This document shows, piece by piece, positions 1 to 47,967 of a stretch of DNA of 64,000 nt. The notes beneath the pieces were generated by a model. It saw only the letters and a program-made list of their open reading frames with translations. It made no database searches and had not been told where the DNA came from. Position numbers and translations under genes: made by a program. The stretch's first letter is position 1. Each line of letters starts with the position of its first letter. This DNA comes from a virus: the IMG/VR virus record IMGVR_UViG_3300042991_000365, positions 1-64,000 of that record. One strand, 5' to 3'.

Positions 1-234
1 ACAAGTGGTTACAATATTAGTGATGAATATAAATTTCAAAAAGCATATATTAAATATTATGTTAAAGCGGAAAATGTTTTTGATAAAACAGACGAAGAAT
101 ATGAAAAAGAAAAAAAAGAATTAATTGCAACAGCTTTAGAATATTTATATGATAATTTTGGTTTGAATAATAAAATAGAAGACCTTTATCCTAATGAAAT
201 GTATAGAGTTAATAGTAAAAAATATAATATATAA
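1..234 (+). CDS. KYNI-family protein, 5' end outside window
   Basis: The frame is open from the window edge; 77 residues are visible. They are charged and lysine/glutamate-rich and end in SKKYNI, the C-terminal signature shared by about thirty small proteins in this window. No domain is recognised in the visible part. A 3-base gap separates it from the next gene, which has the same tail, so the two are probably co-transcribed. Confidence 0.7.
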   Translation, partial: TSGYNISDEYKFQKAYIKYYVKAENVFDKTDEEYEKEKKELIATALEYLYDNFGLNNKIEDLYPNEMYRVNSKKYNI

Positions 235-237
235 TTA

Positions 238-765
238 ATGATAACAAGTTTTAGTGATTTTCAGATGCCAGATGTAAATTCAGTTAGTAGAGAATTTTGG
301 AAAATGACTACTGTGGTGAATTGGAAAAAAGTAATAGTAGATTATAAAAATGCTGATAAATTTAGTAGTAGTAATCGTGAAGTAAACGAAAACCGAAAAA
401 AAATTAAAGAACTTGCTCAAAAGAGATTGTGTTTAAAATATGAATATGAACAAATAAAAAATTTTGAAAAAGAATTACAATATATGTATAAACAATTATA
501 TCTATATTTTAAAAAATCTTGGTTAGATGGTAAAATTGATGTAAGTGATGATGGCTATTGGGATCTTTTAACATCTGTAATTGGTAGTGGAAAGAAATTT
601 ACTAAAGAATGTTTGTGGAATCCTAAAATTCTTTCAGACATGGCAAAAAAAAATAATTATGTTGAAAATTTTAGTTATCTTTTTACTATTGATGAAAAAG
701 AGTATATTGAAATTAAATCTAAATATGATCCACTTTTTAGAGATGTTAAAAAATATAATATATGA
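238..765 (+). CDS. KYNI-tailed unknown protein
   Basis: 175 residues. The N-terminus (MITSFSDFQ) only loosely resembles the family's M-K-x-I-K-x-Y-E start, but the end is VKKYNI. A lysine/glutamate-rich helical stretch at about residues 45-95 could form a coiled coil. The stop overlaps the next ATG by four bases (ATGA), which implies translational coupling. No function is recognised. Confidence 0.75.
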   Translation: MITSFSDFQMPDVNSVSREFWKMTTVVNWKKVIVDYKNADKFSSSNREVNENRKKIKELAQKRLCLKYEYEQIKNFEKELQYMYKQLYLYFKKSWLDGKIDVSDDGYWDLLTSVIGSGKKFTKECLWNPKILSDMAKKNNYVENFSYLFTIDEKEYIEIKSKYDPLFRDVKKYNI

Positions 766-1124
766 AAAAGAAATTTTTTAGACGCAAATTAGAAATAGAT
801 ATTTTAGATTTAGCCAAATATTATAATGGTGATATGTCTAAAGCTATAGATGATTTGTTAGAGTTAGCTGAAAATTCATCAAGTTATAAAATATATTCTA
901 AATACCTTAATAGTTGGTTTAAAGGAGAAAGATTGTTTAGATATGGTAAATCATTTGATTATAGGCATGATAAATCATATGGATTAATAATAAACAATAA
1001 TTATTTTTCAAGTTATGATTATTTAATAAAAAGAACAGAGAAAGTAATTTTTACATTTTTTAATGTATATTTTGATGATAATATTATTGAAACAGTATCA
1101 GATGTGTCAAAATATAATATTTAA
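762..1124 (+). CDS. KYNI-tailed unknown protein
   Basis: 120 residues ending in SKYNI, starting inside the stop of the upstream gene. The N-terminus is basic (MKKKFFRRK) and lacks the usual family start. It ends convergently against the minus-strand gene at 1121-2029, the two stop codons overlapping, so no terminator fits between them. Function unknown. Confidence 0.7.
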   Translation: MKKKFFRRKLEIDILDLAKYYNGDMSKAIDDLLELAENSSSYKIYSKYLNSWFKGERLFRYGKSFDYRHDKSYGLIINNNYFSSYDYLIKRTEKVIFTFFNVYFDDNIIETVSDVSKYNI

Positions 1125-2029
1125 TCCCATTCAAGTCTATTTACCGTATATTCGTTTAAAGTTTCCTTATCAATAGAACCAGAAATATAATCATAATATG
1201 GTTTTTTAAATTTAAAATATTCAATTTCATTTAAAATGGCTTGTAAATTACCATAATTAGTATCTTCAAATTCATACTCACCATAAAGTCCTTTTAATTC
1301 GCTTTTAATATCAGACCAACTAATATTAAGTTTTATGTATAACATATCTACTTCTTTTTCTTCACCTTTTTTTATAATCTTTTTATTTTTATGTTCGATT
1401 TCTCCAATTTCTTTTTCAAAAGCATTTTTTATTTTGGTGTAATATTCATCAAGATCAGCAGAATCTTGAGCTTCACTTAAAGCAAGTTGGAGACTACTGT
1501 TTAGTTCTTTTAAATCTCTGGTATCTATATATTTAACAAATTTTTCATCATTAAAATATATATCTCCATTTTTAAATGTTAAATTTTCATCTGTTAATAA
1601 TTCATCATCAATTTCAAGACCTTTATCTATACAATATTTAATTATTTCTTTTTTTGTGTCTTCATTATAATAATACCACCATGTGTTTATATCGTATCCA
1701 TAATTATCAGATGGATTATATTCATATTCGCCATTTAAGATTTGAATTTCAAATTCGTAGTCATCAGATAATATATCATCAAAATCATTAACAACTAAAT
1801 ATGTATCATCATTTATAATTTCTATGTCCATTAATTTACAAAAATACTCATCTGATATTAATTTATTTTCCCATAAAATAATCCAACCTCGTTCATTTAT
1901 ATCACTATCAATATTATCAAATGATACATTATAGTTTTTAATTAAATTTTTTATATCATTTTCATCAAAATTTAAAGCTGATTCATATTCATCATATGCT
2001 GTTAACATTGTTAAAATTAAATTGACCAT
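1121..2029 (-). CDS. acidic unknown protein
   Basis: 302 residues, very rich in Asp, Glu, Tyr and Asn. No enzyme motif is seen. Its composition and a helical segment near residues 185-215 resemble parts of the 437-residue protein at 22735-24048, so a distant relationship is possible but not shown. It is divergent from the gene at 2080; the short AT-rich gap between them should hold both start signals. Confidence 0.7.
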   Translation of the reverse strand: MVNLILTMLTAYDEYESALNFDENDIKNLIKNYNVSFDNIDSDINERGWIILWENKLISDEYFCKLMDIEIINDDTYLVVNDFDDILSDDYEFEIQILNGEYEYNPSDNYGYDINTWWYYYNEDTKKEIIKYCIDKGLEIDDELLTDENLTFKNGDIYFNDEKFVKYIDTRDLKELNSSLQLALSEAQDSADLDEYYTKIKNAFEKEIGEIEHKNKKIIKKGEEKEVDMLYIKLNISWSDIKSELKGLYGEYEFEDTNYGNLQAILNEIEYFKFKKPYYDYISGSIDKETLNEYTVNRLEWD

Positions 2030-2079
2030 TAAAATATAATATTTTTTATTTTATATATATTAAAAAAAATTATTATATT

Positions 2080-2475
2080 GTGGTCTTTATAAAAATATTT
2101 GAAAAATATTTAGAAGTAGATGATGTTAAACAAGAAATTTTAAATAAAGCTATTGAAACAGGTGAAGTTGAAGTTCTTGGGTTTTTTATAAATAAAGGAT
2201 ATGATATTGATAATATAAGTTCTATTGTAAAAGCAATGCCAATTGATAATATGTTATTGTATTTTCTAAAAAACGGTATCAATATTGAAAAATATAAAGA
2301 CGATTATGATATAAAAAGAAAATTAGAAGATTACGATATTCAAGATACATTAATGGAAAATGGATATGATAGATTAATATATAATACTGTTGGATTTTGT
2401 TGGAGAGTTAAAAATAATCCAAAATATGCAGATATTATTTCTTTGTATGAAGACTCCACAAAATATAATATATGA
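2080..2475 (+). CDS. KYNI-tailed protein with degenerate ankyrin-like repeats
   Basis: 131 residues starting at GTG. The start, M-V-F-I-K-I-F-E-K-Y, fits the family N-terminal pattern and the end is TKYNI. Residues about 20-75 contain two helix pairs with the rhythm of ankyrin repeats (FFINKGYDI, YFLKNGINI). Known ankyrin repeats bind proteins; the partner is unknown. The stop overlaps the next start by four bases. Confidence 0.65.
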   Translation: MVFIKIFEKYLEVDDVKQEILNKAIETGEVEVLGFFINKGYDIDNISSIVKAMPIDNMLLYFLKNGINIEKYKDDYDIKRKLEDYDIQDTLMENGYDRLIYNTVGFCWRVKNNPKYADIISLYEDSTKYNI

Positions 2476-2822
2476 AACATTTAAAATTTTTTGAAAATAA
2501 TAGCGATTTTCTTTGGTTGGTTGTTTATATAAACCACTCCGAAGATAATGAGAGCGAATATAGATTATTTAATAATATTGAAAATGCTGAAAATTATTTT
2601 CTAAAATTAATCAATGATATTAAAGAAATAAGATTTGCAAATAAAGGCAAAGAAATGAGTCAAATAGATATTATCACCGATGTAAATAGTGCGGTGGATT
2701 ATTTTGAGGATGAATTAGTCGGTTTATATACATTATATATTAGTGAGATGGAAGTTGAAGACGAATTTGATTTACCTGGATATATAAAAGTTGCAAGAGA
2801 TTCAAAAAAATATAATATATGA
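2472..2822 (+). CDS. KYNI-family protein, tandem paralogue A
   Basis: 116 residues, MKHLKFFEN at the start and DSKKYNI at the end. It is clearly homologous to the next gene: both share S-E-Y, then a block of the type ENAENYFLKLINDI near residues 35-50, and similar C-terminal thirds. This is a local duplication. The genes overlap by ATGA. Function unknown. Confidence 0.8.
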   Translation: MKHLKFFENNSDFLWLVVYINHSEDNESEYRLFNNIENAENYFLKLINDIKEIRFANKGKEMSQIDIITDVNSAVDYFEDELVGLYTLYISEMEVEDEFDLPGYIKVARDSKKYNI

Positions 2823-3169
2823 TAAACTTAAAACATTTAAAACTTTTTGAGTCTATTGGTGATATAAAATGGATAGTCATTAATATACCCTTTGGTGATC
2901 CAAGTGAATATATGATATCAATATTTGATGATATGGAAAGTGCTGAAAACTACTTTATTGAACTTGTTAATGATATAGCTATGTCTGACAAATACGAAAA
3001 TGAGGATTACGAAGATTATAATGACATTATATTTACAGTAGAAGATGCCGAAGAATATGTTAGTTCTAATGACTATGTGGTTGAATATAAATCATTTAAT
3101 GTTCGAGGTAAATATGAACTACCAGAAAAATTAAAAATTGGAGCTGATTCTAAAAAATATAATTTATAA
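2819..3169 (+). CDS. KYNI-family protein, tandem paralogue B
   Basis: 116 residues, same length as its upstream paralogue, with MINLKHLKLFES at the start and DSKKYNL at the end; the shared block reads ESAENYFIELVNDI. It is the last gene of this run, yet it still carries the tail, so the tail is not simply a junction with a following gene. Function unknown. Confidence 0.8.
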   Translation: MINLKHLKLFESIGDIKWIVINIPFGDPSEYMISIFDDMESAENYFIELVNDIAMSDKYENEDYEDYNDIIFTVEDAEEYVSSNDYVVEYKSFNVRGKYELPEKLKIGADSKKYNL

Positions 3170-6170: not shown

Positions 6171-6412
6171 ATGAAATTTCTTAAAAAATTTGACTCAAGT
6201 ATAAATTTAATATTGGTAGTTATGTTGCACGTAAAAGAAAAAACGGCTTTATTTATATTATAGATGATATGAATTATTTAAGAAATTTAATATGGATTTA
6301 TAAAATTATAAATATAGATACAAATATGCATGAATGGGTAACCGAAAATTCTTTAAGAGATTTAACAGAAAAGGAAAAAATATTAGTATCAGCAAAAAAA
6401 TACAATCTATGA
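6171..6412 (+). pseudogene. frameshifted KYNL-family gene
   Basis: The start MKFLKKFDSS is a family N-terminus, but this frame runs into TAG after 30 codons. From about 6205 another frame carries the rest: NIGSYVARKRKNGFIYII and so on, ending in AKKYNL at a TGA that overlaps the next ATG. The two halves make one normal family gene if one base is missing near 6195-6215, either a real mutation or a sequencing error. Confidence 0.75.
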
Positions 6413-6555
6413 GGATAAAAAAATGTAACAACTGTAAGGAAGACAAAGAGGTAATTGAATTTGAGTATTTGTTTTTCAGAGAAAAATATGAAAATGTTTG
6501 TAAAAAATGTAAAGAGAATGGTGTAATTATAGAAGATGAAAAATATTTTAAATAA
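6409..6555 (+). CDS. two-CxxC zinc-binding mini-protein
   Basis: 48 residues from the ATG that overlaps the preceding KYNL stop; a longer in-frame extension upstream is rejected because it lies over the preceding gene. CNNC near the start and CKKC near residue 32 form a four-cysteine zinc site, as in treble-clef or zinc-ribbon mini-proteins. The role is unknown; nucleic-acid binding is plausible. Confidence 0.7.
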   Translation: MRIKKCNNCKEDKEVIEFEYLFFREKYENVCKKCKENGVIIEDEKYFK

Positions 6556-6860
6556 TGAAATATATAAAAACATACGAAGGTTATAGAGTTTTTGATAAAA
6601 AGAACATTGGAGATATTGTACAATGCTATTTTACACCGTCCTATGGTTATCATAATTTAGGTGTTGGTAGAAAATATGAAATAGTTGACACAAGATCAAG
6701 TGGTCAATTTTACGAGATTAAGGTTAAACCAATAGAGTATGATCCATTAATAAATGATGATAGATTTGACAGATATTATCTTGAAGTATATTTTATGAAT
6801 CCAGAAGAAAGAATAAAACTAATAAAATTTAATAAAAAAGTAGATAAATACAATATATGA
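6555..6860 (+). CDS. KYNI-family SH3-like protein
   Basis: 101 residues, MKYIKTYEGYR to DKYNI. After the start module comes NIGDIVQCYF and RKYEIVDT, an SH3-like barrel pattern. First of three overlapping family genes (ATGA junctions at 6857 and 7153). Function unknown. Confidence 0.8.
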   Translation: MKYIKTYEGYRVFDKKNIGDIVQCYFTPSYGYHNLGVGRKYEIVDTRSSGQFYEIKVKPIEYDPLINDDRFDRYYLEVYFMNPEERIKLIKFNKKVDKYNI

Positions 6861-7156
6861 AATTTATAAAAACATACGAAGGAGTTTGGGAAAAGAACAT
6901 AAAAGTTGGTGAGATATACAAAATGACAGACTTTTTAGTTGCTGAAAAAGGTTATTTAAGAAATATTCCAATTTGTAGAGTTTTAGATACGACTGGATAT
7001 GGATATTTTAATATTAAAACTTTTATTAAATCGACAAGAGAAAAGTATGTAATGGAATTATATAAAAAATTTATTTTAAAAAAAGCAACACCAGAAGAAA
7101 TTAAAGAATTTGAAGAATTTGAAACATATGAAACATCAAAAAAATATAATATATGA
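6857..7156 (+). CDS. KYNI-family SH3-like protein
   Basis: 99 residues, MKFIKTYEGVW to SKKYNI. The core has KVGEIYKMTD and a C-terminal helix rich in glutamate. Middle gene of the three-gene overlapping run. Function unknown. Confidence 0.8.
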   Translation: MKFIKTYEGVWEKNIKVGEIYKMTDFLVAEKGYLRNIPICRVLDTTGYGYFNIKTFIKSTREKYVMELYKKFILKKATPEEIKEFEEFETYETSKKYNI

Positions 7157-7518
7157 AATATCTAAAATCATACGAAGAAAAAAGAAGAGGTAATGAAATA
7201 GTATATACGTTCACAACAAAAGCCAAATCAGGTGAACATCAATATACAGTTCATATATTACAAGATGATCCAAAATATGATGAAACAAATGGACATTCTT
7301 ATAATGGACTAGCATTATCAATTGATGATACTCCAGCTTGTTGGTATGTTTCAACATTATTACATTATTCTGATCCACCAATTATAAATTTTGATAAAAT
7401 TTCAATTAGCGGTAGTTATTGGATGTGTGATAATTGGAGAGAAATTGGTGAAGAATTAAAAAGCTGGGTAGCTAATATATATCCACATTATGAAGATTTA
7501 AAAAAATATAATATATAG
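7153..7518 (+). CDS. KYNI-family protein
   Basis: 121 residues, MKYLKSYEEKRR to LKKYNI, stopping at TAG. The core is beta-rich and then helical (REIGEELKSWVANIYP). It does not show the SH3-like GDxV pattern, so different folds carry the same ends. Function unknown. Confidence 0.8.
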   Translation: MKYLKSYEEKRRGNEIVYTFTTKAKSGEHQYTVHILQDDPKYDETNGHSYNGLALSIDDTPACWYVSTLLHYSDPPIINFDKISISGSYWMCDNWREIGEELKSWVANIYPHYEDLKKYNI

Positions 7519-7806: not shown

Positions 7807-8070
7807 TTATAAATTGTATTTTTTTGATTGAGATATTAATTCCATGTATTTTTCTATTTCATCACTATCCTTTTCACTATATATTGGAAATGTGCCATAT
7901 TTATCTTCAGCCAAATCAACAGAAATTAATTTTTTCATTTTTAAATATTCTAGTTGCTCTGGATCTACCCACACCGAATAGCCTGTAATTTCATTATTTG
8001 AATCAACTTCCCATGCTTCAATTAAATTAAAATCATCTCTATGGTTTTCAAATTTTTTAATATGCATCAT
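7807..8070 (-). CDS. KYNL-family protein
   Basis: 87 residues, MMHIKKFENHRDD to SKKYNL. Isolated on the minus strand, with no family gene following it, so the tail is kept without a junction partner. Function unknown. Confidence 0.75.
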   Translation of the reverse strand: MMHIKKFENHRDDFNLIEAWEVDSNNEITGYSVWVDPEQLEYLKMKKLISVDLAEDKYGTFPIYSEKDSDEIEKYMELISQSKKYNL

Positions 8071-8450: not shown

Positions 8451-8807
8451 TTATATGTTATATTTGGTAATATTTTCGTAAAGACTAGAATATTTTTTCA
8501 TTTTATATTCGCTAATCACCACAATTGTTTCAATTTCTTTGGGTCCACTATGTTCTCTTTTTATTTTTAATTTTTCTTTTTCTAAAAAATTATAAAATTT
8601 CTCAAATGATTCTTCTGAAGTCATATATCTAAAATAAAAAGCCAGTTCTAATTTATTATTATCTATAAACTCAAATCTACATTCAATAAAACCCTCATGA
8701 ATTGATACTGGCATTATACTTTCTAAATATAAACAAGTATAACTAGCCATTTTTTCATCTTCATTCAATGTAGCATAATAATTTTCGTATAATGCTAAAT
8801 GTTTCAT
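8451..8807 (-). CDS. KYNI-family protein, last of array
   Basis: 118 residues, MKHLALYENYYA to ENITKYNI. Beta-rich core followed by a helix. It is the last gene of a five-gene minus-strand array (10234 to 8451), stopping 2 bases from the terminator stem; the KYNI tail persists although no gene follows. Function unknown. Confidence 0.8.
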   Translation of the reverse strand: MKHLALYENYYATLNEDEKMASYTCLYLESIMPVSIHEGFIECRFEFIDNNKLELAFYFRYMTSEESFEKFYNFLEKEKLKIKREHSGPKEIETIVVISEYKMKKYSSLYENITKYNI

Positions 8808-9136
8808 ATATTATATTTATTTGTTTGTACTTTCAAATCTTTTATATCTAATAAATCCTGTATATTATTTGATTGATATAACATATTATTTATAACATAC
8901 TCTAAAGTATAAATCCAATCTTCACTATATTCATTAAGGTCTTTACCTGTCATCATATCAAATAAATATATTCTTTTTAATCGTACTTTATTAACATTAG
9001 TTGTCATATCCTTATATCTTTGAACTACTTTCATAATCGCCATTCTTTTTTCAGAATTACCATGATCCATTATAAGATAATCTTTAAGATATATGTTAAC
9101 ACCATCCCAATCCTCATATGTTTTTATAACTTTCAT
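8804..9136 (-). CDS. KYNI-family protein
   Basis: 110 residues, MKVIKTYEDWDG to TNKYNI. It appears homologous to the gene at 38180-38521: both have a YLKDYL or DLKEYI strand, an RIY segment and a C-terminal helix of the type DDIDKLLEIAELK. Overlaps both neighbours by ATGA. Function unknown. Confidence 0.8.
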   Translation of the reverse strand: MKVIKTYEDWDGVNIYLKDYLIMDHGNSEKRMAIMKVVQRYKDMTTNVNKVRLKRIYLFDMMTGKDLNEYSEDWIYTLEYVINNMLYQSNNIQDLLDIKDLKVQTNKYNI

Positions 9137-9321
9137 TTCTTTTTATTAAAATATTCTTCTTCGATTGTTCTATATTTTGGTTCTTTTTTGGCTTGTTCTT
9201 TTTCTAATCTTGGGTTGATTGTATTTAATTCTAATATAAGCTCTTCAAAACATCTTTCACAATATAAATTATCAATTCTTTTACCTTCTTTTTTATAGCA
9301 AATTGTACAAAGTTTCTTCAT
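9133..9321 (-). CDS. four-cysteine zinc mini-protein
   Basis: 62 residues with CTIC near residue 5 and CERC near residue 22, then a charged helix. It lies inside the KYNI array, joined to both neighbours by ATGA overlaps, but has neither shared end. Comparable to the mini-protein at 6409-6555, which also sits beside KYNI genes. Confidence 0.7.
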   Translation of the reverse strand: MKKLCTICYKKEGKRIDNLYCERCFEELILELNTINPRLEKEQAKKEPKYRTIEEEYFNKKK

Positions 9322-9887
9322 ATATTATATTTTTTCATATCAATAATACGTTCTAAATCTTCTTTATTTTTAGAAAAATATTTTATTGATTCATCAGTTG
9401 TACTAATTATACCTTTACCATCATGTATACCAATTTCTAATTTTTTAACGGAATAATCAAAATTTGTCCATCTTAATTCAGATCTCTTTCTAGCCAAAAC
9501 TTCACATATATAATTATCACCACCTAGTATTACATAATCACCAACCATTGGTAATTTTTCCAAATTTCTCCTATCCTTTGCGTAACTTCTTATCTCATCA
9601 ATTGTTGCTAAAACTTTCAGTTTCCAAAATTCATATTTATCAAAAGTTATTTTATATTCTTTTGTATTTTCGTTGTAATCAATAATTTGTCCAACAGCAA
9701 TTCTATATATTTTGTTTTCTCTATTATATCTTGTTACATAATCAGCATCACCTATTATCTCATCATAATATTTATCAGTCATTCGAACATAATCACCTAT
9801 CATTGGTGGTCTTTTTTCTCTATACTGTTTAATATGAGAAAATACTGTAGGCTCTTCTATTTGTTCAAATGTTTTTAAATGTCTCAT
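9318..9887 (-). CDS. KYNI-family protein with two SH3-like barrels
   Basis: 189 residues, MRHLKTFEQIEEP to MKKYNI. Two copies of the barrel signature are visible, MIGDYVRMTD near residue 30 and MVGDYVILGG near residue 113, so this is a duplicated-domain member, about twice the usual family length. Function unknown. Confidence 0.8.
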   Translation of the reverse strand: MRHLKTFEQIEEPTVFSHIKQYREKRPPMIGDYVRMTDKYYDEIIGDADYVTRYNRENKIYRIAVGQIIDYNENTKEYKITFDKYEFWKLKVLATIDEIRSYAKDRRNLEKLPMVGDYVILGGDNYICEVLARKRSELRWTNFDYSVKKLEIGIHDGKGIISTTDESIKYFSKNKEDLERIIDMKKYNI

Positions 9888-10234
9888 ATATTATAACTAT
9901 CTATATTTTTTAAAAAATCATCAATTACTATTTCATTATTAATAAGTTTTACTTCACCACCAAATTTCAAGTTCAAACGTTTAAAATCGTCTTTACCGTT
10001 TTCTATATCATCACCATCTTCTATTTCAAAATAATTCCAACCGTATTTTTTAGTATAACCAAAATATAAACCTTTTAATCTTGTTGATAAATATTCAGCG
10101 TGCATTTGAGGTAGTTTATTTTCTATAACAAATTTTCTAATTATAATTTTAACTTCTTCTATGTTACCATTTATTACCCAAAAGTATTTTAGATAATCAA
10201 TTTTATTATTTTCAAATTTTTTAATATATTTCAT
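9884..10234 (-). CDS. KYNI-family protein, first of array
   Basis: 116 residues, MKYIKKFENNKID to DSYNI (Lys replaced by Ser in the tail). First gene of the minus-strand array; an AT-rich stretch with TTTATATATAATAAAATATG immediately precedes it. Function unknown. Confidence 0.75.
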   Translation of the reverse strand: MKYIKKFENNKIDYLKYFWVINGNIEEVKIIIRKFVIENKLPQMHAEYLSTRLKGLYFGYTKKYGWNYFEIEDGDDIENGKDDFKRLNLKFGGEVKLINNEIVIDDFLKNIDSYNI

Positions 10235-22410: not shown

Positions 22411-22734
22411 ATGAAACATGTGAATGAGTATAACAATTTAAACGAAAGAAAAAGGTATAAAGATAAAATATCACACCAATATAAATTAAATCAATATCAA
22501 AAATATGATCCTGAAAATGATGAGTTTTTAAGAGAAGTTTGGTGTGATAAATCTATTCCAAAATATGTTTCAGAAGGTAAAAAGTATCGTTTATATGCTG
22601 AATTTGAAACTGGAGCAATGATTTCTGGTAAATGTTATGTTGTTTTAACTGATAATAAAGAATTTGTAGGATTAGATTCTGAATATTTTTTAGAAGATTA
22701 TCAATGGATTGCATCAAAAAAATATAATATATAA
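22411..22734 (+). CDS. KYNI-tailed protein
   Basis: 107 residues, MKHVNEYNNLNER to SKKYNI, a diverged family start. The middle is charged; VSEGKKYRLYAEFETG looks like a beta barrel segment. The next family gene begins directly after its stop. Function unknown. Confidence 0.75.
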   Translation: MKHVNEYNNLNERKRYKDKISHQYKLNQYQKYDPENDEFLREVWCDKSIPKYVSEGKKYRLYAEFETGAMISGKCYVVLTDNKEFVGLDSEYFLEDYQWIASKKYNI

Positions 22735-24048
22735 ATGAAATATATTAGAACTTACGATAATTTTAAACCAATTAAAATAAATTCTGAAAAACCATTTAAA
22801 GTAAAAAAAAACATTGTAAAAAGTGTTAAATATTTACAAGATAGAGTTAAAAGTTTAAGACGTAGAATTTCTGATGAAAAAGACATCAAAAAACGTTCAG
22901 ACATGAACAAAGATGTTAATAAGAATGTTAAAAAAATTAGTGATCTCAATTTTAAAAACCTCAAACAAATAGAATATTTAAGAAACAATCCTATTAAAGA
23001 AGAATTAGAAAACATTGAAGAATTAGAAAATAATGAAAATTTGAAAGATGTTATAAGCTCACCAGATTTTAATATTGAAGATATTGAAAAATATATCGGT
23101 ATTGATGATGATGATTATCAATTAGATTTTTTTGATGGATATTATTCCAATAATAAAGAGGAATTTAAATTATTCGTAGAAGAATCTACCTTAACAGATT
23201 TATTAAATATTGAAAATGGTGCTATAGATTTTTTTATGCAATTTCAAGACTACAATAATTATGAATATAATGTTAATGATGATGAACTAAATTATTTGCA
23301 TTGTTATTTAGATGAAAATAGTTCAAATAAAATAAAAACATTAGCAAAAGCATTTAAATATAAATTAAAAATAAATAAGCATGGATACGAAGAAGATACT
23401 ATTAATGATTTTTTAACATATTTAGGATTAATTGATTTTGAAAAAGATATTTTAATAGAAATAAGTTACGAAAAAGAAAGATGTGTAACTAAAGAAGCAA
23501 AAAGAATAATAGAATCTCTACCTTTTGAAATTTCATATGAATATAATAATAAATTTAATTATGAACTTATTTTTAATATTGATACTATATTTAAATATAT
23601 TGAGGAAAATAAATTAGATAATATAAAAACCATAAAAGATTTTTTAGAAAACATTTCTGAGTCAAGTGAGTTAACATATGAAGTAGAGTATCAATCTGAT
23701 GGTGATGCTGATTATAAGAATTTAAATAAAAGTATAGGAGAAGAATTAGATAAATTTATAAATAGTCCTGATGAGGTTTTTCCATATATAATAATGGTAG
23801 ATAGTTTAAGTGCAATTAAAAAGAATATCAAATTAGCATTGTTTGATTATCATTATGAAATCAGATTTAATTATGATGAAAAGAAAGGTAACTTATTTGA
23901 ATTGGCAATAGAAGTTAATGGTAAAATTTATGATTGGTTTAAATCAGATGAATTTGCAACACTTATTAAAAAAATAGGTGATAACGATAGTATAGCCGCT
24001 TATAATGAATTTTTATTTGGTGAAAATGTAAAAAGATATAATATATAA
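22735..24048 (+). CDS. long KYNI-family protein
   Basis: 437 residues, by far the longest member, MKYIRTYDNFKPI to VKRYNI. Residues about 25-75 form a basic coiled coil; the rest is acidic, alpha/beta and rich in Asp and Asn. It shows that the two ends can be attached to large proteins. Its stop overlaps the next start as TAATG. Function unknown. Confidence 0.8.
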   Translation: MKYIRTYDNFKPIKINSEKPFKVKKNIVKSVKYLQDRVKSLRRRISDEKDIKKRSDMNKDVNKNVKKISDLNFKNLKQIEYLRNNPIKEELENIEELENNENLKDVISSPDFNIEDIEKYIGIDDDDYQLDFFDGYYSNNKEEFKLFVEESTLTDLLNIENGAIDFFMQFQDYNNYEYNVNDDELNYLHCYLDENSSNKIKTLAKAFKYKLKINKHGYEEDTINDFLTYLGLIDFEKDILIEISYEKERCVTKEAKRIIESLPFEISYEYNNKFNYELIFNIDTIFKYIEENKLDNIKTIKDFLENISESSELTYEVEYQSDGDADYKNLNKSIGEELDKFINSPDEVFPYIIMVDSLSAIKKNIKLALFDYHYEIRFNYDEKKGNLFELAIEVNGKIYDWFKSDEFATLIKKIGDNDSIAAYNEFLFGENVKRYNI

Positions 24049-29142: not shown

Positions 29143-29523
29143 ATGTATTATAAAAAACTTGAACACTATAATAGTATAGCAACAAAAATTGATGACATTT
29201 TAAAATATTTTAATATTATTGAATTAAACGATACTACATATTATAAAAATCTTATCATTTTTATGAAAGAAATATTTATTAATAAAGAAATAAGCTTTAC
29301 CTCTATTGATGTTCCTAAAAATAATCCTATAATAACAGGAAAATGTATAAATATTAAAACATTTAATTATAAATATAATTATTTTTTTAAATTCAAAATT
29401 GGCACTATATGGTATTTAGTAGATGCAAATAAAGATATTATAGTTAAAAACTATGATGCTAATAATAAAAAATATCACAAAGAAGTAGAGCTAAAAAAAG
29501 AAATGATAAAATATAATTTATAA
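29143..29523 (+). CDS. KYNL-tailed protein
   Basis: 126 residues, MYYKKLEHYNSIA to MIKYNL. The start is a diverged version of the family pattern. The middle is lysine-, asparagine- and phenylalanine-rich with beta strands. It ends 28 bases from a convergent gene. Function unknown. Confidence 0.7.
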   Translation: MYYKKLEHYNSIATKIDDILKYFNIIELNDTTYYKNLIIFMKEIFINKEISFTSIDVPKNNPIITGKCINIKTFNYKYNYFFKFKIGTIWYLVDANKDIIVKNYDANNKKYHKEVELKKEMIKYNL

Positions 29524-34387: not shown

Positions 34388-34406
34388 ATTACACTAAAGA
34401 TGTAAT
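34388..34406 (-). repeat. IS605-type end hairpin
   Basis: Minus strand ATTACA, loop TCTTTAG, TGTAAT. The loop TCTTTAG is the same as in both end hairpins of the IS605 element at 45-47 kb, and here too the tnpB stop codon lies in the hairpin, so this is a right end. Confidence 0.7.
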
Positions 34407-35759: not shown

Positions 35760-36092
35760 TTATAAGTTATATTTTTTTGATTTAATAACAAGTTGAATAT
35801 CATCATCAGATACTAATTCATCATTACTTGATTCTTTTACTATGAATAATACATCATAATTTTTTTTATATAATTCGTAAAAATGTACACACTTTTCTAA
35901 TGATGTTGTTCTAACGACTGAATCTGGTTTAATTCTAGATTCTTCATATAATTCTCCATTAGATTTAAAAAGTGTAATACTATATAAAGTATAATGTACT
36001 TCATCAATTACTATTTTTTGTTTGGCCTTATTAATAATATTAATAATCTCATCGGGATATTCATTATCGGCATTAAATTTTTCTATTATCAT
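35760..36092 (-). CDS. KYNL-tailed protein
   Basis: 110 residues, MIIEKFNADNEYP to SKKYNL, the start only partly family-like. Beta-rich with a helix near residue 75. A -7 element lies 40 bases upstream, divergent from the gene at 36152. The 147 bases between it and the TnpB-like gene show no further feature. Function unknown. Confidence 0.75.
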   Translation of the reverse strand: MIIEKFNADNEYPDEIINIINKAKQKIVIDEVHYTLYSITLFKSNGELYEESRIKPDSVVRTTSLEKCVHFYELYKKNYDVLFIVKESSNDELVSDDDIQLVIKSKKYNL

Positions 36093-36110: not shown

Positions 36111-36125
36111 TTTTTAATATATATT
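36111..36125 (+). promoter_or_regulatory. candidate phage promoter motif T5-AATATATA
   Basis: TTTTTAATATATATT, 27 bases before the ATG at 36152; same motif as at 28915 and 37608. Confidence 0.3.
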
Positions 36126-36131
36126 AAAAAA

Positions 36132-36151: not shown

Positions 36152-36454
36152 ATGAAATATATAAAAAAATATGAAAACATTAATTCTGACCTGAAAGTAG
36201 GTGATTATGTTTTGATAAAATCTACTTTTTCAATTGAAAAATTAAAGGATTTTATTAATAAGACAATAGGCCAAATAACTCAAATTGATATTGATAATAT
36301 TGTATATGTAAAATATACTAAAATTCCGTTTGAATTAATACAATATTTTGATGCTAATGGTGGGAGATATTTTCAAAATAAACAAATAATAGAATTTGAT
36401 AAAGATATTGAAAAATTAAAATTAAAAATAGACTCCAAAAAATATAATATATGA
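36152..36454 (+). CDS. KYNI-family SH3-like protein
   Basis: 100 residues, MKYIKKYENINSD to SKKYNI, with LKVGDYVLIKST and a NKTIGQITQID loop. Homologous to the gene at 39251-39565, which has IGDYVLISMKG and NNNIGQIIKFD in register. ATGA overlap with the next gene. Function unknown. Confidence 0.8.
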   Translation: MKYIKKYENINSDLKVGDYVLIKSTFSIEKLKDFINKTIGQITQIDIDNIVYVKYTKIPFELIQYFDANGGRYFQNKQIIEFDKDIEKLKLKIDSKKYNI

Positions 36455-36750
36455 TAACTAAATTTAAAATATTTGAAAACAATACTGATTTTAAAAAATA
36501 TTTTATATCAGATTTTTTTGATATTTTAGCAATATTTGAAATTTTAAATATTAACACTAAAAACTCCACAGCCAAAATAAAATTATTATATTCATATGAT
36601 AATGAAAAATTTGTAAATGATACAGATAGTACACCATATTTTAAACCTTTAGTAATATTAAATAATAAAATATTATACTCTTCTAATAGCCTTGAAGATT
36701 GTTTAGATGTAATTAAAACTTTGAAAGATATAAACAACTATAATATATAA
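36451..36750 (+). CDS. KYNI-family protein
   Basis: 99 residues, MITKFKIFENNTD to NNYNI. It lies 7 bases before gmhA on the same strand, so a KYNI gene and an enzyme of sugar metabolism share a transcript. Function unknown. Confidence 0.75.
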   Translation: MITKFKIFENNTDFKKYFISDFFDILAIFEILNINTKNSTAKIKLLYSYDNEKFVNDTDSTPYFKPLVILNNKILYSSNSLEDCLDVIKTLKDINNYNI

Positions 36751-37594: not shown

Positions 37595-37626
37595 CAAACT
37601 TAATAAATTTTTTTAATATATACAAA
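37595..37626 (-). promoter_or_regulatory. complete Bacteroidota-type promoter for tRNA-like RNA
   Basis: Minus strand TTTG (37626-37623), 20-base spacer, TAAGTTTG (37602-37595). Transcription would begin at about 37590, at the 5' end of the acceptor stem. Confidence 0.7.
37608..37623 (+). promoter_or_regulatory. candidate phage promoter motif T7-AATATATA
   Basis: TTTTTTTAATATATAC ends 6 bases before the first gene of the eight-gene KYNI array. It overlaps the minus-strand promoter of the tRNA-like RNA, so the two could compete. Confidence 0.35.
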
Positions 37627-37629: not shown

Positions 37630-37917
37630 ATGAAGCATTTAAAGACATATGAATCTGAAGTTGATAATGATTTTAAATTTAATATAGGTGATGTGGTTAT
37701 ATGTATTAAAAATACATGGCCAATTGAAAATATGAAATTAGGTGAAACATATATAGTTCTTGATAGAAAAAAATATAGTGGTATTAACTATTATGGTGTA
37801 TCTGATACCGATGGTTATGGAATAGAAAGCATATTAATTCCAGATGAATTAGCCTTTTACGGTGAGAAGATATTTGTAACACCGCTTGAATATAATGCTG
37901 ATAAATATAATATATGA
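37630..37917 (+). CDS. KYNI-family SH3-like protein, array gene 1
   Basis: 95 residues, MKHLKTYESEVDN to DKYNI. The core FNIGDVVICIKN, LGETYIVLDRK and GVSDTDGYG gives a clear SH3-like barrel. First of eight head-to-tail genes, each joined to the next by ATGA. Function unknown. Confidence 0.82.
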   Translation: MKHLKTYESEVDNDFKFNIGDVVICIKNTWPIENMKLGETYIVLDRKKYSGINYYGVSDTDGYGIESILIPDELAFYGEKIFVTPLEYNADKYNI

Positions 37918-38183
37918 AATATTTAAAAACATATGAAGTCTCTAATACAAAAGAACCAAATTTTAAAAAAGGTGACTACGTTTATTGTATTGATCCAAGC
38001 TATAATCATGGTGAAAAATTACATCCATATAAACATGTTGATACAGATATAAAATATTGTGTAGATTTTGTTTATAAAAACCAAGGAGTGTGGTTTTGTA
38101 ATTTAAAAGGTAAAGGTCCAAATTTCTATTGCACTAGTTTTATACCAGAAGCAGAATATGATGCAAAAAAATATAATATATGA
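37914..38183 (+). CDS. KYNI-family SH3-like protein, array gene 2
   Basis: 89 residues, MKYLKTYEVSNT to KKYNI, with FKKGDYVYCIDP and YCVDFVYKNQGVWFC. The C-terminal approach SFIPEAEYDAKKYNI resembles genes 1 and 8, so these three seem to be close paralogues. Function unknown. Confidence 0.82.
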   Translation: MKYLKTYEVSNTKEPNFKKGDYVYCIDPSYNHGEKLHPYKHVDTDIKYCVDFVYKNQGVWFCNLKGKGPNFYCTSFIPEAEYDAKKYNI

Positions 38184-38521
38184 AATATTTAAAGACATAT
38201 GAGAATTTTATGGATTTAAAATTTAAAGACCTTAAAGAATATATACTTTTAAAAAGAGGTGATAGTGGTGGTTTTGATATATTCAAAATTAGTAAAAAAA
38301 ATTTTAATAACATTGAACCAAAATGTAAAGTGAGAAGAATATATACTATTAGTAATAAAGGAATAAAAAAAATACAAGATCTTAATAAAACTAAAACTGT
38401 TGATGATTTATATATTAGATTTAGATTTATTATAGAATATATGGTTGATCATTCAGACGATATAGATAAATTATTAGAAATAGCAGAATTAAAAATTGCA
38501 ACAAAGAAATATAATATATGA
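38180..38521 (+). CDS. KYNI-family protein, array gene 3
   Basis: 113 residues, MKYLKTYENFMD to TKKYNI. Homologous to the minus-strand array gene at 8804-9136 (DLKEYILLKRGDS, RRIY, then IIEYMVDHSDDIDKLLEI), so related cassettes sit in distant arrays. Function unknown. Confidence 0.82.
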   Translation: MKYLKTYENFMDLKFKDLKEYILLKRGDSGGFDIFKISKKNFNNIEPKCKVRRIYTISNKGIKKIQDLNKTKTVDDLYIRFRFIIEYMVDHSDDIDKLLEIAELKIATKKYNI

Positions 38522-38823
38522 AATATTTAAAAACACACGAAAGTTTTAAAGATTGGACTCCAAGTACATATCAAAAAAACGATTTGGTTATTATTGAATC
38601 TGATTGGTTAGAGAGTATAGCAAAAGTTATTAATGTGTTACCAAGTGATAATTTTAAAGATGATACAGAATATAAATTGGAATGTAAAACAAAAATAAGT
38701 TCTGACATGATAAATGAATATGTCATAATATCTGCAATAGAAAAAGAGATTGTAAGAAAGTTAACTCCTTCAGAAATAATTGAATATAATTTACGAGAAG
38801 ATGCAAAAAAATATAATATATGA
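38518..38823 (+). CDS. KYNI-family protein, array gene 4
   Basis: 101 residues, MKYLKTHESFKDW to AKKYNI. Contains YQKNDLVIIESDWLESIAKV, a barrel-like start, and a helical C-terminal segment (LTPSEIIEYNLREDA). Function unknown. Confidence 0.82.
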   Translation: MKYLKTHESFKDWTPSTYQKNDLVIIESDWLESIAKVINVLPSDNFKDDTEYKLECKTKISSDMINEYVIISAIEKEIVRKLTPSEIIEYNLREDAKKYNI

Positions 38824-39254
38824 GATATATTAAAACATATGAAGATAGTGAAAATATAGAAGAACTTAAAAAAGATCTTAAAAAATTATTATTGCACATA
38901 AGAAGAATATTGAACAATTATTATAGTTCAACAGTGGATTTTGGTGATGATCAATATAGTATTTATTTTTCAAATATTTCAGTACCAACACAAAGGGTAA
39001 TAGATATACAAGGTGAGTTTTCAAGTTCTTTAACATTTTTATCAATAACATTAAGAATTGGAAGTATTTATGATGATTTTCCTAAATTTTTACAAGAATA
39101 CTTTAAAACCATTTCTGGACTTGAATTATATAATGAAAGTCCCAGTTTTTACAATACTCAATTTAAAATAACTGGAGACATGGATGATATAATAAATCAA
39201 ATTTCAAAAGAAGATATTGAAATTAAATCAAATTCAAATAAGTATAATATATGA
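38820..39254 (+). CDS. KYNI-family protein, array gene 5
   Basis: 144 residues, MRYIKTYEDSENI to SNKYNI. An N-terminal helix (ELKKDLKKLLLHIRRILNNY) precedes a beta-rich half; not the SH3-like type. Function unknown. Confidence 0.82.
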   Translation: MRYIKTYEDSENIEELKKDLKKLLLHIRRILNNYYSSTVDFGDDQYSIYFSNISVPTQRVIDIQGEFSSSLTFLSITLRIGSIYDDFPKFLQEYFKTISGLELYNESPSFYNTQFKITGDMDDIINQISKEDIEIKSNSNKYNI

Positions 39255-39565
39255 AACATTTAAAAACATTTGAGAATATAAATGGACCACAAATTGGTGA
39301 TTATGTATTAATTAGTATGAAAGGTAGTTATAATAATGATAACAGTATTGATTTTTTTATTAATAATAATATAGGACAAATTATTAAATTTGATGAAAAT
39401 ATGAGACTGGTTAAATATTCAAATGTACCAGGAAATATCAAAATGAAAAACAAATTTAATAAAGATGGTTCTATTTGGATAGGTAACGCATTTAAAACTG
39501 TAGCCTTTGGTAAAACAAAAGAAGAACTAGAATTAAAAATGGATATGAAAAAATATAATATATGA
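39251..39565 (+). CDS. KYNI-family SH3-like protein, array gene 6
   Basis: 104 residues, MKHLKTFENINGP to MKKYNI, with IGDYVLISMKG and NNNIGQIIKFD; a paralogue of 36152-36454. Function unknown. Confidence 0.82.
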   Translation: MKHLKTFENINGPQIGDYVLISMKGSYNNDNSIDFFINNNIGQIIKFDENMRLVKYSNVPGNIKMKNKFNKDGSIWIGNAFKTVAFGKTKEELELKMDMKKYNI

Positions 39566-40005
39566 AACATTTAAAAACATATGAATCAATAAAAAATTTG
39601 AATTTCAAATTAAAAGATAATTCAATGTATATATTTTATGATTATGAAATGGGACTGAATAAAGTTGAAAAATTTTTAAAATTATATTTAATAAATAATA
39701 CTATAAATAAATCTATGAAAGAGTTTCTTAAAAATGTTGAAAGCAAAAAACGTTTTAATAAAAATAAAGGAGCAATATTATATTATATTGACGGTTATGA
39801 AAATTCTCAATTTGACGTATTTGATTATTATAACAGTAGAAAAAATAAAGGTGATAATAGAAATTTAAAATATTATTTAAGGAATTATTATAGTTATAAT
39901 ATAGAATATATAGATATTAAAAACGATAAAATTATTTCTTTATCTAAAGAAGAATTTATAGATAAAATTAATTTTATTAATGATGCAAATAAATATAATA
40001 TATGA
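39562..40005 (+). CDS. KYNI-family protein, array gene 7
   Basis: 147 residues, MKHLKTYESIKNL to ANKYNI. Lysine-, asparagine- and tyrosine-rich, mostly helical with some strands; not SH3-like. Function unknown. Confidence 0.82.
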   Translation: MKHLKTYESIKNLNFKLKDNSMYIFYDYEMGLNKVEKFLKLYLINNTINKSMKEFLKNVESKKRFNKNKGAILYYIDGYENSQFDVFDYYNSRKNKGDNRNLKYYLRNYYSYNIEYIDIKNDKIISLSKEEFIDKINFINDANKYNI

Positions 40006-40295
40006 AACATTTAAAAGCATTTGAAAAAATTGAAGATGATAGATTAGCAGTTAAATTAGCTAATTATGAATATGATGATTCTAAAACATATGATATACCC
40101 AGATTTGAAGTTGGAGATATTGTTTATGCTGATCCTAAACTAATACAAAATATGTCTATGATAAACAAAGAATTAAAAGTTATGAAAGTTTTTCCAACTT
40201 GTTATTATGTTGTAGATAGATATCCAAATTTTGCACTTTCTCAAAAAAGATTAATATCAGAAGAAGAATATAATGTAAATAAATATAATTTATAA
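40002..40295 (+). CDS. KYNL-family SH3-like protein, array gene 8
   Basis: 97 residues, MKHLKAFEKIEDD to NKYNL, with FEVGDIVYADPK and CYYVVDRYP. Last gene of the array, meeting the thioesterase gene head-on; the tail is present without a following family gene. Function unknown. Confidence 0.82.
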   Translation: MKHLKAFEKIEDDRLAVKLANYEYDDSKTYDIPRFEVGDIVYADPKLIQNMSMINKELKVMKVFPTCYYVVDRYPNFALSQKRLISEEEYNVNKYNL

Positions 40296-43875: not shown

Positions 43876-43983
43876 TTTTATTTTTATATCTATATATAAA
43901 AATATCATATCGTAAAGTGGAGTGTGACCAATTAATTAATTTACAAATTACTAATATTTTTTAATTATTTATTATAAAAATTT

Positions 43984-47048: not shown

Positions 47049-47174
47049 TTATCTTTTTTTACCATATTTAAGTTCAGCTAACCTTTCTTTGATTAGTTCT
47101 TCTGAATTTTGATAATCTTTCTTTTTTACCTCTTTGCTATTAAATAGCTCCCTAAAAAATTTCTTAATATTCAT
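47049..47174 (-). CDS. small helical protein
   Basis: 41 residues, MNIKKFFRELFNSKE to ELKYGKKR, amphipathic and basic. A -7 element lies 26 bases upstream. Function unknown. Confidence 0.55.
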   Translation of the reverse strand: MNIKKFFRELFNSKEVKKKDYQNSEELIKERLAELKYGKKR

Positions 47175-47199
47175 AATTTTATTCTTTTTAATTAATATA

Positions 47200-47207
47200 C
47201 AAATATA
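47200..47207 (-). promoter_or_regulatory. Bacteroidota-type -7 element
   Basis: Minus-strand TATATTTG; fits TAnnTTTG and points at the genes from 47174 down. Confidence 0.5.
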
Positions 47208-47262
47208 ATATTTTTTTTTATATAAAAAAAATTATAATAATAATTTATAATATATACATTAT

Positions 47263-47684
47263 ATGAAACATTTAAAAAAGTTTGAAAAATATGTAGAATT
47301 AGATAAATTGATAGATTTATCTAAATATATGATGTATCACAAAGCATTAACATTTAATGATGTTGATACAGCAGAAGAAATATTAGATGAACTCAATCCA
47401 AAGTCCCAAAAAAGGTTAGGTAGGCAAGTTAAAAATTTTGATCCTAAAGTATGGGATAAAGTTAAATTCAATATAGTTAAAAAAGGATTAAGAGAAAAAT
47501 TCACACAAAACTCTGATTTAAAAAATATTTATTAAAATATAAAGGATATCAAATTGTAGAAGCCTCACCAGAAGATAGGATTTGGGGTATTGACTATTAC
47601 GCTCAAGATGCAATTAATAATATTGATAATTGGGGTGAAAATATATTAGGTAAAATATTAACAGAACTTTCACAGGAAAATTAA
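47263..47684 (+). pseudogene. NADAR-domain protein with family start and a frameshift
   Basis: It opens MKHLKKFEKYVE, the KYNI-family start, then runs into a NADAR domain (YMMYHKALTFND, LGRQVKNFDPKVWDKVKF, LREKFTQNSDL). TAA comes at 47533; the last part of the domain (YQIVEASPEDRIWGIDYYAQ and NIDNWGENILGKIL) is in another frame to 47684, so one base is displaced near 47525-47535. The N-terminal quarter of a usual NADAR is also missing. Known NADARs remove ADP-ribose from nucleotides or DNA. Confidence 0.75.
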
Positions 47685-47688
47685 ATAA

Positions 47689-47967
47689 ATGGTAACAAAA
47701 GGAGAAGAATTAAATGCTGTATGTAAAGAAGGATTACCAGGTCATAGATGCCCGTTGCTTATATTAGGTGACACTTATTTATTTAGGATAGATAAATTTA
47801 AATATAAATTTTCTATTTTTAATCATAGAAGGATTATTGTTTTTTGGATGGATAATGGTACACGTGGTACTTATTTTGATAGTGATACTTTTAAATATAA
47901 ATTCCACCCTAAAGAAACATTAGAAAATTTTTTATTAAGATTAGAATCTGAAAAATATAATTTGTGA
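47689..47967 (+). CDS. KYNL-tailed protein
   Basis: 92 residues ending ESEKYNL at TGA. The start MVTKGEELNAVCKEG is not of the family type. Beta-rich with LGDTYLFRIDKFK, an SH3-like pattern. Function unknown. Confidence 0.7.
   Translation: MVTKGEELNAVCKEGLPGHRCPLLILGDTYLFRIDKFKYKFSIFNHRRIIVFWMDNGTRGTYFDSDTFKYKFHPKETLENFLLRLESEKYNL

Follow-up and report, generated by a model that had tools for sequence, protein, structure and literature searches.

Unrelated small proteins of a huge T4-like phage share two conserved ends that probably form a protein address

What could make some thirty small, otherwise dissimilar proteins of one virus begin and end alike? The question is raised by bases 1–64,000 of the 65,539-base IMG/VR virus record IMGVR_UViG_3300042991_000365, a stretch of 23% G+C that we call the window. 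A reading made from the letters alone (the sequence-only reading) had counted 31 genes there that end in KYN[IL], two-thirds of them opening with a common motif likened to the capsid-targeting leader of phage T4, and had suggested a shared address, perhaps for packaging of their products into the virion. We refer to such a gene as a cassette, to its C-terminal K-[YF]-N-[ILV] stretch as the tail and to the N-terminal consensus M-K-[HY]-[LI]-K-x-[YF]-E as the head. Our analysis indicates that head and tail together probably serve as a protein-level address with two ends, borne by many small accessory proteins of a huge T4-like phage.

Open reading frames (ORFs) were called by a simple rule that takes the longest frame from an ATG. 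Over six frames the window has 269 stop-terminated ORFs of at least 40 residues. Thirty of these complete ORFs end in [YF]N[ILVM], 27 of them in the strict KYN[IL] and one each in RYNI, SYNI and NYNI; a frame cut by the left edge, whose translation ends in KYNI at position 234, is the 31st and brings the strict total to 28. The earlier figure of 31 holds when one includes the truncated frame, the three near-variants and a doubtful 47-residue ORF (6269–6412), and the lengths (87–437 residues, that ORF apart) and the occurrence on both strands are as had been described. In the overlap-filtered gene set the strict head expression matches 17 of 29 tail genes, and with the head-like starts that it misses (MKHLALYE, MMHIKKFE, MINLKHLKLFE and MITKFKIFE) the share comes to about two thirds, as claimed. 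Cassettes form runs at 0.2–3.2, 6.3–10.2, 22.4–24.5, 35.8–36.8 and 37.6–40.3 kb, with singles at 29.1 and 47.7 kb, and six tail genes lie on the minus strand (7807, 8451, 8804, 9318, 9884 and 35760). Within a run, cassettes commonly overlap their neighbours in the sequence ATGA, in which the final A of the tail and the TGA stop provide the next start. In a ten-contig set, made up of the window and nine relatives, [YF]N[ILVM] occupies 528 of 217,307 internal positions (0.24%), and by chance about 0.3 tails would be expected among 140 window ORFs, where 29 were seen. The DNA word AARTAYAAYMT, counted at tails and elsewhere, occurs 31 times in the window against 7.2 ± 2.7 times after shuffling, and none of 100 shuffles reached 31. 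The repetition of the ends is real.

Relatives were found by the DNA pattern of the cassette junction; a related-locus search with one cassette protein returned none. Among IMG/VR viral contigs the pattern was present in 25 stretches (18 contigs) in one search and in 42 stretches in another, 43 different contigs over the two, and in the genome_contigs collection it had no match. The search of related phages for the same end pair, which the sequence-only reading had called for, thus found it in 43 IMG/VR contigs, so that the lack of conserved ends in relatives, named in advance as counting against that reading, did not occur. Picking relatives in this way biases the tail frequency in those contigs upward; several contigs were covered up to 1–6 kb from their end, and later-added contigs were split at 20-kb borders, so that border-spanning ORFs were lost. 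A 14-contig set adds G019, G022, G024 and G025 to the ten, with ORFs of at least 70 residues and repeats removed. G022 lies nearly all inside G024 (240 of 243 ORFs have identical last 45 residues); its treatment is given with the counts below, and it is still included in the per-contig tail list and the chi-square tests. G016 and G018, which seemingly repeat parts of G015 and G007, were left out of gene counts. Tails with a residue outside KRNSEDQT at position -4 were excluded from the 14-contig co-occurrence, pair, homolog and operon-motif counts, and only tails with K or R at -4 (K/R tails) enter the neighbour-context, per-genome Y/F and AAC/AAT codon analyses.

The two ends go together. Across 1,270 ORFs of the ten contigs, strict expressions found both ends on 116, the head only on 25, the tail only on 72 and neither on 1,057; in the 14 contigs, with G022 counted once, the head MK[HY][LI]Kx[YF]E stands on 239 of 385 tail genes against 35 of 1,804 others. 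A profile of 188 tails has K at -4 in 88%, Y in 89% and a final I in 55% or L in 42%, the Y/F, N and I/L/V/M positions being set by the search expression, and E, K and L abound in the stretch preceding the tail. Tail genes with a usual -4 residue make up 29 of 140 ORFs covered in the window, 80 of 394 in G024, 101 of 550 in G019 and 2 of 224 in G006.

The middles, by contrast with the ends, fall apart. BLAST at 1e-3, a threshold at which distant kinship stays possible, sorted 187 tail-protein middles into 114 clusters, 92 of them singletons, the largest holding 34 members (GDYV, SH3/KOW-like) and 10 members (ankyrin, as read from the sequences by eye). Pfam searches with 107 cluster representatives returned ankyrin repeats (Ank_2, 2 members) and single, mostly weak matches to other families; PADLOC gave two single matches only (E 1e-4 and 6e-4) for the same representatives, and PHROGs, searched with ten cassettes, gave weak matches only (best E 0.0023), nearly all to families of unknown function. 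AlphaFold models the window protein at 39251–39565 as a small barrel with a mean pLDDT (predicted local distance difference test) of 83 and a core near 90, followed by a final helix at residues 90–102; residues 1–8 are below 50 and the last four residues, after the helix, average 60. Foldseek found no match to this model below E 0.001, the nearest being PDB KOW, SH3 and ribosomal proteins from E 0.09 and a BFVD entry at E 0.0067. A relative's ankyrin cassette is modelled as an ankyrin stack (mean pLDDT 84; best PDB matches, to designed and natural ankyrins, E 4e-6). The same two ends are joined to unrelated cores, which bears out what had been said of the middles.

Cores also occur without the tail. 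An untailed homolog exists for 71 of 464 tail genes (G022 included), with the head present in both partners in 29 cases, in the tailed partner only in 21, in the untailed only in 6 and in neither in 15; in the window, 3 of 27 tail genes of 80–200 residues have homologs in other contigs versus 16 of 56 untailed genes. Separately, a conserved protein of 60–66 residues (E[FY]VAPxRE ... KDVISFK) carries the head without a tail in three contigs (L047:1757–1939, L058:4079–4279 and L063:946–1140).

Because the tail word contains TATAAT, a promoter or a recombination junction had to be excluded before the tail could be read as protein. In the ten contigs the tail codons are AAA 156 to AAG 10, TAT 143 to TAC 25 and AAT 155 to AAC 33, and the background inside the same genes is AAA 0.91, TAT 0.905 and AAT 0.867, so that Y and N are no tighter than background and K is slightly tighter; TAC, AAC, TTT/TTC and ATA/TTA/CTA/ATT are among the codons in use. 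The 171 K/R tails comprise 107 that overlap or abut the next start, 22 with a convergent neighbour, 22 followed by a same-strand gap of more than 50 nt, 18 by a gap of 9–50 nt and 2 at an edge, and the four large classes all write identical residues with mixed codons. These codon and context counts do not show what a DNA-level junction or promoter would require, nucleotides conserved beyond codon usage and only beside a downstream start. In the 330-kb contig G019 the tail, on 101 of 550 ORFs, is mostly KFNL (48) or KFNI (41), with F written TTT 71 times and TTC 20 times and N written AAC 51 times and AAT 50 times. Since codons are mostly no tighter than genome usage, 44 of the 171 K/R tails (convergent or with a gap above 50 nt) lack an adjacent downstream start and some relatives spell KFNL or KFNI, the tail is selected as protein: selection acts on its amino acids, and the reading of the tail word as a TATAAT promoter or recombination site was rejected on codons and gene context. 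One oddity concerns the F tails of G019, G022 and G024 (L150–L181) whose last codon is ATA or a leucine codon. Their N codon is AAC in 79 of 155 (G022 counted once), although AAT makes up 0.87–0.88 of N codons in the genes of G019 and G024, and this excess is without explanation; avoidance of AAT so as not to spell the late-type promoter motif TTTAATATATA was considered and rejected, AAC being equally common before leucine codons and before ATA.

The aromatic residue at -3 follows the genome and not the individual gene. Every K/R tail has Y there in G000 (27 tails), G001 (32), G012 (30) and G025 (24), and most have F in G019 (90 of 100) and G024 (70 of 79), while the overall protein Y:F ratio of these genomes is 1.0–1.4. 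In 163 reciprocal-best pairs of middles below 70% identity (G022 excluded), the -3 residue differs in 64 of 78 pairs between Y- and F-type genomes, the F partners being 54 distinct genes, and in 16 of 85 pairs between like genomes; with G022 included the counts are 87 of 111 and 21 of 122. A change of one residue over dozens of unrelated genes, in mixed codons, is best explained by a trans-acting reader, and because related cassettes differ at Y/F mainly between Y- and F-type genomes we would place one reader in each virus.

The head resembles part of a known leader, the T4 capsid-targeting sequence (CTS). T4 IPII and IPIII both start MKTYQEFIAEA (NC_000866), and in IPIII residues 4 and 7 govern targeting and residues 8 and 10 processing, Asp at residue 10 blocking processing and keeping targeting (PMC9026906). 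When the aromatic of the head is aligned with Y4, head position 10 corresponds to F7. The head stands at residue 1, as on the 239 of 385 tail genes above, and after the aromatic, which the expression fixes, a hydrophobic residue stands at position 10, which it leaves free, in 60% of 114 head+tail genes, against 13% at position 9, 26% at 11, 21% at 12 and a background of 39%. A profile of the targeting half of 39 T4-type leaders taken from these phages separates genes from untagged ones with an area under the curve of 0.88 for head+tail genes, a value that is partly circular, since the expression fixes the aromatic and some of the 39 leaders fit it, and of 0.72 for tail-only genes, which were not chosen by their N-terminus. 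Full T4-type leaders occur in relatives, MRKMRTYQEFIKES in G010 and MKYIKEYEEFILEA in LR756500. The tail-rich G025 has, by BLAST, a gp23-type capsid protein and a prohead protease of the S77 type with a scaffold-like region attached, and G006 has an S77 protease and a gp23-type shell by profile; the S77 protease proteins of G006 (L040:6386–8734) and G025 (L183:639–3011) contain the motif Y-x-[EK]-Y-[IL]-x-E 8 and 9 times, for the most part at a spacing of 14 residues, which is the pattern of T4-type leaders. We take the long repeat-bearing part as a putative scaffold, and LNE, which precedes NVAYSTLGNLNGMGA in the G006/G025 capsid protein, as its likely maturation site. An 83-residue protein (L030:4612–4863, minus strand) has a T4-type leader, MKKFKEYIKE, followed by GGMGAVVAAQPSATPG, which resembles the stretch after LNE in the G006 capsid protein.

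Expression signals bear on when the cassettes are used. The motif TTTAATATATA or a near variant precedes the sheath gene in 3 of 3 cases with upstream sequence available, the tail tube gene in 4 of 4 and a baseplate-like gene in 4 of 4; it precedes none of the RNR, DnaB, rtcB, HNH and ATPase genes, one of four sig1 genes and the single sig2, which has a CTS-like start. A loose form, T[AT][AT]TATATA, lies upstream of tail genes that come first in their operon in 57 of 90 cases, of head-only genes in 13 of 16 and of the remaining genes, structural ones among them, in 245 of 829 (G022 excluded; 66 of 102 versus 254 of 882 with it), and its background in the ten contigs is 3% of random 60-mers and 12% of shuffled cassette upstreams. 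The structural-gene motif is thus commoner before cassette operons than before other operons, which agrees with the packaging proposal; with its position relative to the ATG, described below, this indirectly suggests late, perhaps leaderless, cassette messages.

Prohead loading of the cassette proteins is to our mind the best explanation of these patterns, and we give it about half of our confidence. The head would descend from a T4-type CTS, keeping the part that docks on the prohead core and having mostly lost the cleavage part, and the tail would be a second, clade-specific docking tag with one partner in prohead or scaffold. Made in bulk late in infection, the proteins would dock on the prohead core through the head and through the partner of the tail, be enclosed before DNA is packaged and enter the next host with the genome, where their ankyrin, SH3/KOW-like and other cores may be effectors of take-over or counter-defence, like T4 IPI and Alt. 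More tentatively, a single prohead component in each phage might read both ends and bulk-load about 100 effectors per virion, reader and tags having changed together from Y to F; we regard this stronger form as possible, clearly short of an even chance.

Several observations weigh against prohead loading or against one strict reader. Near the leader of head+tail genes the cleavage half is mostly absent: [ILF]NE occurs in 1 of 114 and [ILFV]xE in 28 of 114, against 32 in a control stretch ([ILF]NE is found in 16 of 72 tail-only genes and in 24 of 52 heads of LR745206). The likeness to the T4 leader therefore stands for the targeting half and not for the processing half, and the cleavage by a prohead protease that had been proposed fails for most of these proteins; the head may act like the targeting half of a CTS, yet because the cleavage feature was tested and did not appear we do not file it as a classical one. 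The sequence-only reading had called for a prohead protease to be sought in the same genome. Of 19 records S77 matched 3, one of them above the cut-off, and of 15 records Gp23 matched 3, again with one above it; relatives G006 and G025 have the protease, and neither family matched in the 65.5-kb window record. The capsid proteins of G006 and tail-rich G025 are 86% identical, yet in the 156.5 kb of G006 covered only 2 tail genes have a usual -4 residue, and the shell, protease and sheath proteins that we found are without a tail. A sigma-factor-like protein of G014 (phrog_1740; L052:5682–6740, minus strand) has the CTS-like start MIVKFYEFIIE / MIVKFYEFIIEN and TTTAATATATA upstream; it may be a packaged sigma factor, or a sign that such leaders serve more than packaging. 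The ankyrin model draws the head inside the first helix (pLDDT about 63). The motif TTTAATATATA precedes none of three hub-lysozyme genes, and the loose motif ends 0–9 nt from the ATG in 37 of 57 cassettes versus 43 of 245 others, 133 of the others having it at 15–24 nt, so its use in cassette operons may differ from that in structural genes. Mixed contigs (8 Y and 6 F in G007, 6 and 6 in G015, 9 and 5 in G003) imply that strictness is not required of a reader; G019 and G024 may belong to a single lineage, and the change to F may then be one switch. The final I/L differs in 63 of 148 related pairs where genome preference differs and in 40 of 85 where it is the same (G022 included), and I/L as a second co-switching position was rejected, related pairs not following genome preference.

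Much of this would also fit the main rival, an address to another shared site in the cell, such as a replication or transcription body, a membrane site or a late assembly hub, with the likeness to the CTS ancestral or convergent: the missing cleavage half, the similar leader of the sigma-factor-like protein and the untailed structural proteins all point that way, and the Y/F pattern requires a common reader, not a prohead. We nevertheless consider such a site rather unlikely, in view of the position-specific pattern of the targeting half that the head retains, the full T4-type leaders of relatives with the matching protease–scaffold repeats, and the late-type promoter motif. The tail might instead be a C-terminal tag for a protease, a chaperone or a PDZ-like domain that sets stability or activity, the head being a separate signal. 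A free C-terminal Y/F-x-I/L/V is shaped like a hydrophobic C-terminal ligand and is the class II PDZ motif; PDZ_6 and PDZ_2, however, matched in 0 of 18 phage records, mostly fragments, and in all 14 control genomes, and while the host could supply a reader, the link of tail to head would be left unexplained, which makes this improbable.

That the ends are features of the DNA, serving as promoter or for translational coupling (TATAATAT before ATG), or as a junction at which cassettes recombine and are swapped, is suggested by the 107 K/R tails that overlap or abut a start, by TATAAT within the KYNI codons and by an AAT/AAC choice that departs from usage in F-type genomes. It is already largely refuted: tails occur at convergent ends and in front of gaps, synonymous change runs at roughly the genome rate with mixed codons within one genome, and the changes of Y to F and among I, L and V are conservative. 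We rate it very improbable; recombination at similar ends may still spread cassettes. The claim that the ends are protein-level signals is borne out by the codons, the convergent and gapped tails and the Y-to-F relatives. Chance, or plain paralogy within one duplicated family with conserved ends, is least credible of all: the SH3/KOW-like cluster does take in 34 of 187 middles and the ankyrin cluster 10, but 92 of 114 clusters are singletons at the BLAST threshold used, ankyrin and barrel folds are unrelated, and the tripeptide is as rare inside proteins as given above.

The virus itself was placed through its proteins. In tblastn searches, the 137 window proteins gave 22 matches in G015, 21 in G019, 18 in G003, 17 in G024 and 9 in the huge phage LR745206, and 40 of the 44 matched window proteins are not cassettes; blastn of 8 kb against annotated phages gave no match. 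The cassette-bearing contigs G014, G007, G010 and G006 have genes for a contractile sheath and a tail tube as well as a baseplate-like gene (PF12322 at 19.6 bits, below the cut-off of 24.5), and among annotated phages the nearest sheaths are those of the uncultured 735-kb LR756501/LR756503 (50% identity), other phages of 0.46–0.64 Mb, Flavobacterium phage MaF61 (31%) and Lak phages. One huge-phage study puts its own genomes larger than 634 kb in a Mahaphage clade with predicted Bacteroidetes hosts (PMC7162821, seen in part). The window appears to group with T4-like phages related to huge phages of Bacteroidota, and its host is probably a member of the Bacteroidota; because no structural gene was identified in the window, this placement and host rest on shared genes and cassettes.

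Other features of the window are listed with the cassettes in Table 1. The palindrome TTTTTAATATATATTAAAAA (36111–36130) could act as a promoter for both divergent cassettes. Pfam matches at 15687–19491 and 42994–43908 are to a glycosyltransferase, a calcineurin-like phosphoesterase, a D12-class adenine methyltransferase and a GIY-YIG protein. The proteins at 34389–35612 and 45643–46818, which we take to resemble IS605-type TnpB/OrfB, have relatives in G007 and G015.

Table 1. Cassettes and associated elements of the window, by position.
Position	Strand	Feature	N-terminus	Tail	Remarks
1..234	+	truncated cassette gene		KYNI	start outside window; frame translation
238..765	+	cassette, 175 aa	start MITSFSDF	KKYNI	
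762..1124	+	cassette, 120 aa	without typical head	SKYNI	convergent downstream neighbour
2080..2475	+	cassette, 131 aa	GTG start VVFIKIFE	TKYNI	
2472..2822	+	cassette	head MKHLKFFE	KKYNI	
2819..3169	+	cassette	start MINLKHLKLFE	KKYNL	
6269..6412	+	doubtful ORF, 47 aa		KKYNL	overlaps longer minus-strand ORF
6555..6860	+	cassette	head MKYIKTYE	DKYNI	
6857..7156	+	cassette	head MKFIKTYE	KKYNI	
7153..7518	+	cassette	head MKYLKSYE	KKYNI	
7807..8070	-	cassette	start MMHIKKFE	KKYNL	TAC codon in tail
8451..8807	-	cassette	start MKHLALYE	TKYNI	AAC codon in tail
8804..9136	-	cassette	head MKVIKTYE	NKYNI	
9318..9887	-	cassette	head MRHLKTFE	KKYNI	
9884..10234	-	cassette	head MKYIKKFE	SYNI	TTTATATATA motif immediately upstream
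22411..22734	+	cassette	start MKHVNEYN	KKYNI	TTTTATATATA motif upstream
22735..24048	+	largest cassette, 437 aa	start MKYIRTYD	RYNI	relatives in G003, G015
24048..24491	+	cassette	start MLITDFKSY	KKYNI	array end, convergent neighbour
29143..29523	+	cassette	start MYYKKLEHY	KYNL	convergent neighbour
35760..36092	-	cassette	start MIIEKFN	KKYNL	
36111..36130	.	palindrome TTTTTAATATATATTAAAAA			separates two divergent cassettes; readable as late-type motif on either strand
36152..36454	+	cassette	head MKYIKKYE	KKYNI	SH3/KOW-like GDYV middle
36451..36750	+	cassette	start MITKFKIFE	NYNI	
37612..37622	+	TTTAATATATA, late-type promoter motif			7 nt before start of 37.6–40.3 kb array
37630..37917	+	cassette	head MKHLKTYE	DKYNI	GDVV middle
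37914..38183	+	cassette	head MKYLKTYE	KKYNI	GDYV middle
38180..38521	+	cassette	head MKYLKTYE	KKYNI	
38518..38823	+	cassette	head MKYLKTHE	KKYNI	
38820..39254	+	cassette	head MRYIKTYE	NKYNI	
39251..39565	+	cassette	head MKHLKTFE		SH3/KOW-like (AlphaFold model)
39562..40005	+	cassette	head MKHLKTYE	NKYNI	
40002..40295	+	cassette	head MKHLKAFE	NKYNL	array end, convergent neighbour
47263..47535	+	head without tail	head MKHLKKFE		C-terminus LKNIY
47689..47967	+	last tail ORF, 92 aa	atypical start	EKYNL	

For many genes in huge phages no function has been assigned. With a shared address, a large effector set of these viruses could be listed from sequence alone, and the non-DNA cargo of huge virions would become directly testable; the Y-to-F difference over dozens of tags per genome is an unusual natural experiment in the co-evolution of tag and receptor; and, if packaging is true, the end pair would be a short modular loading signal to try on reporter proteins in the laboratory.

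Searches of titles and abstracts, a coverage outside which most subscription journals lie, found no description of these ends. In seven named phage records, two cultured Bacteroidota phages among them, the KYN[IL] tail is about as frequent as a control pattern, with no clear excess. For the five huge phages that carry the nearest sheaths of the annotated collection, tail-to-control counts are 10:12 (LR745206), 13:13 (LR756504), 20:15 (LR756500), 14:17 (LR756501) and 17:14 (Lak-B2 MK250021). The first three resemble the window in having the head (47, 25 and 11 DNA matches, control 0), which by pattern is nowhere in LR756501 and MK250021, and differ from it in having other recurrent C-termini (LGI, ELL and FDN/LDN). 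In LR745206 (L079–L110) an LGI end, more widely R[ND]xK[LI]xxLGI, closes 15 of 905 ORFs where 0.33 would be expected, on proteins without the MKHLK head; in LR756504 (L111–L116) ELL closes 8 of 230, mostly as [LI]RKxxIxELL or alike; and in LR756500 (L117) NAD[DE]FG[FM][FL]DN closes five proteins, some with an MKYIKEYEEF-like start.

Loading of proteins into phage heads through an N-terminal signal has precedents, each known to us from part of the source. In P1, such a signal loads the anti-restriction protein DarB, but the authors report no consensus among Dar N-termini, and the part of the paper available describes no C-terminal tag (PMC9024508). SPN3US and phiKZ are large phages with many loaded head ejection proteins, two paralogs sharing their first 15 residues; they differ in having mostly long propeptides and another protease motif, and the accessible part of that account describes no shared C-terminal tail (PMC5694885). 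Closest is the T4 CTS of IPI, IPII, IPIII and Alt (PMC9026906, in the part seen), like the head a short leader at residue 1 with K-x-aromatic and a hydrophobic residue three further on, set on divergent small accessory proteins of T4-like phages, whose relatives here have an S77-type protease with a scaffold-like region. The cassettes differ in that most head+tail proteins have nothing that corresponds to the cleavage residues I8 and E10, that a constant C-terminal tetrapeptide has been added and that the set is far larger, 101 of 550 ORFs in G019 as against three or four internal proteins in T4.

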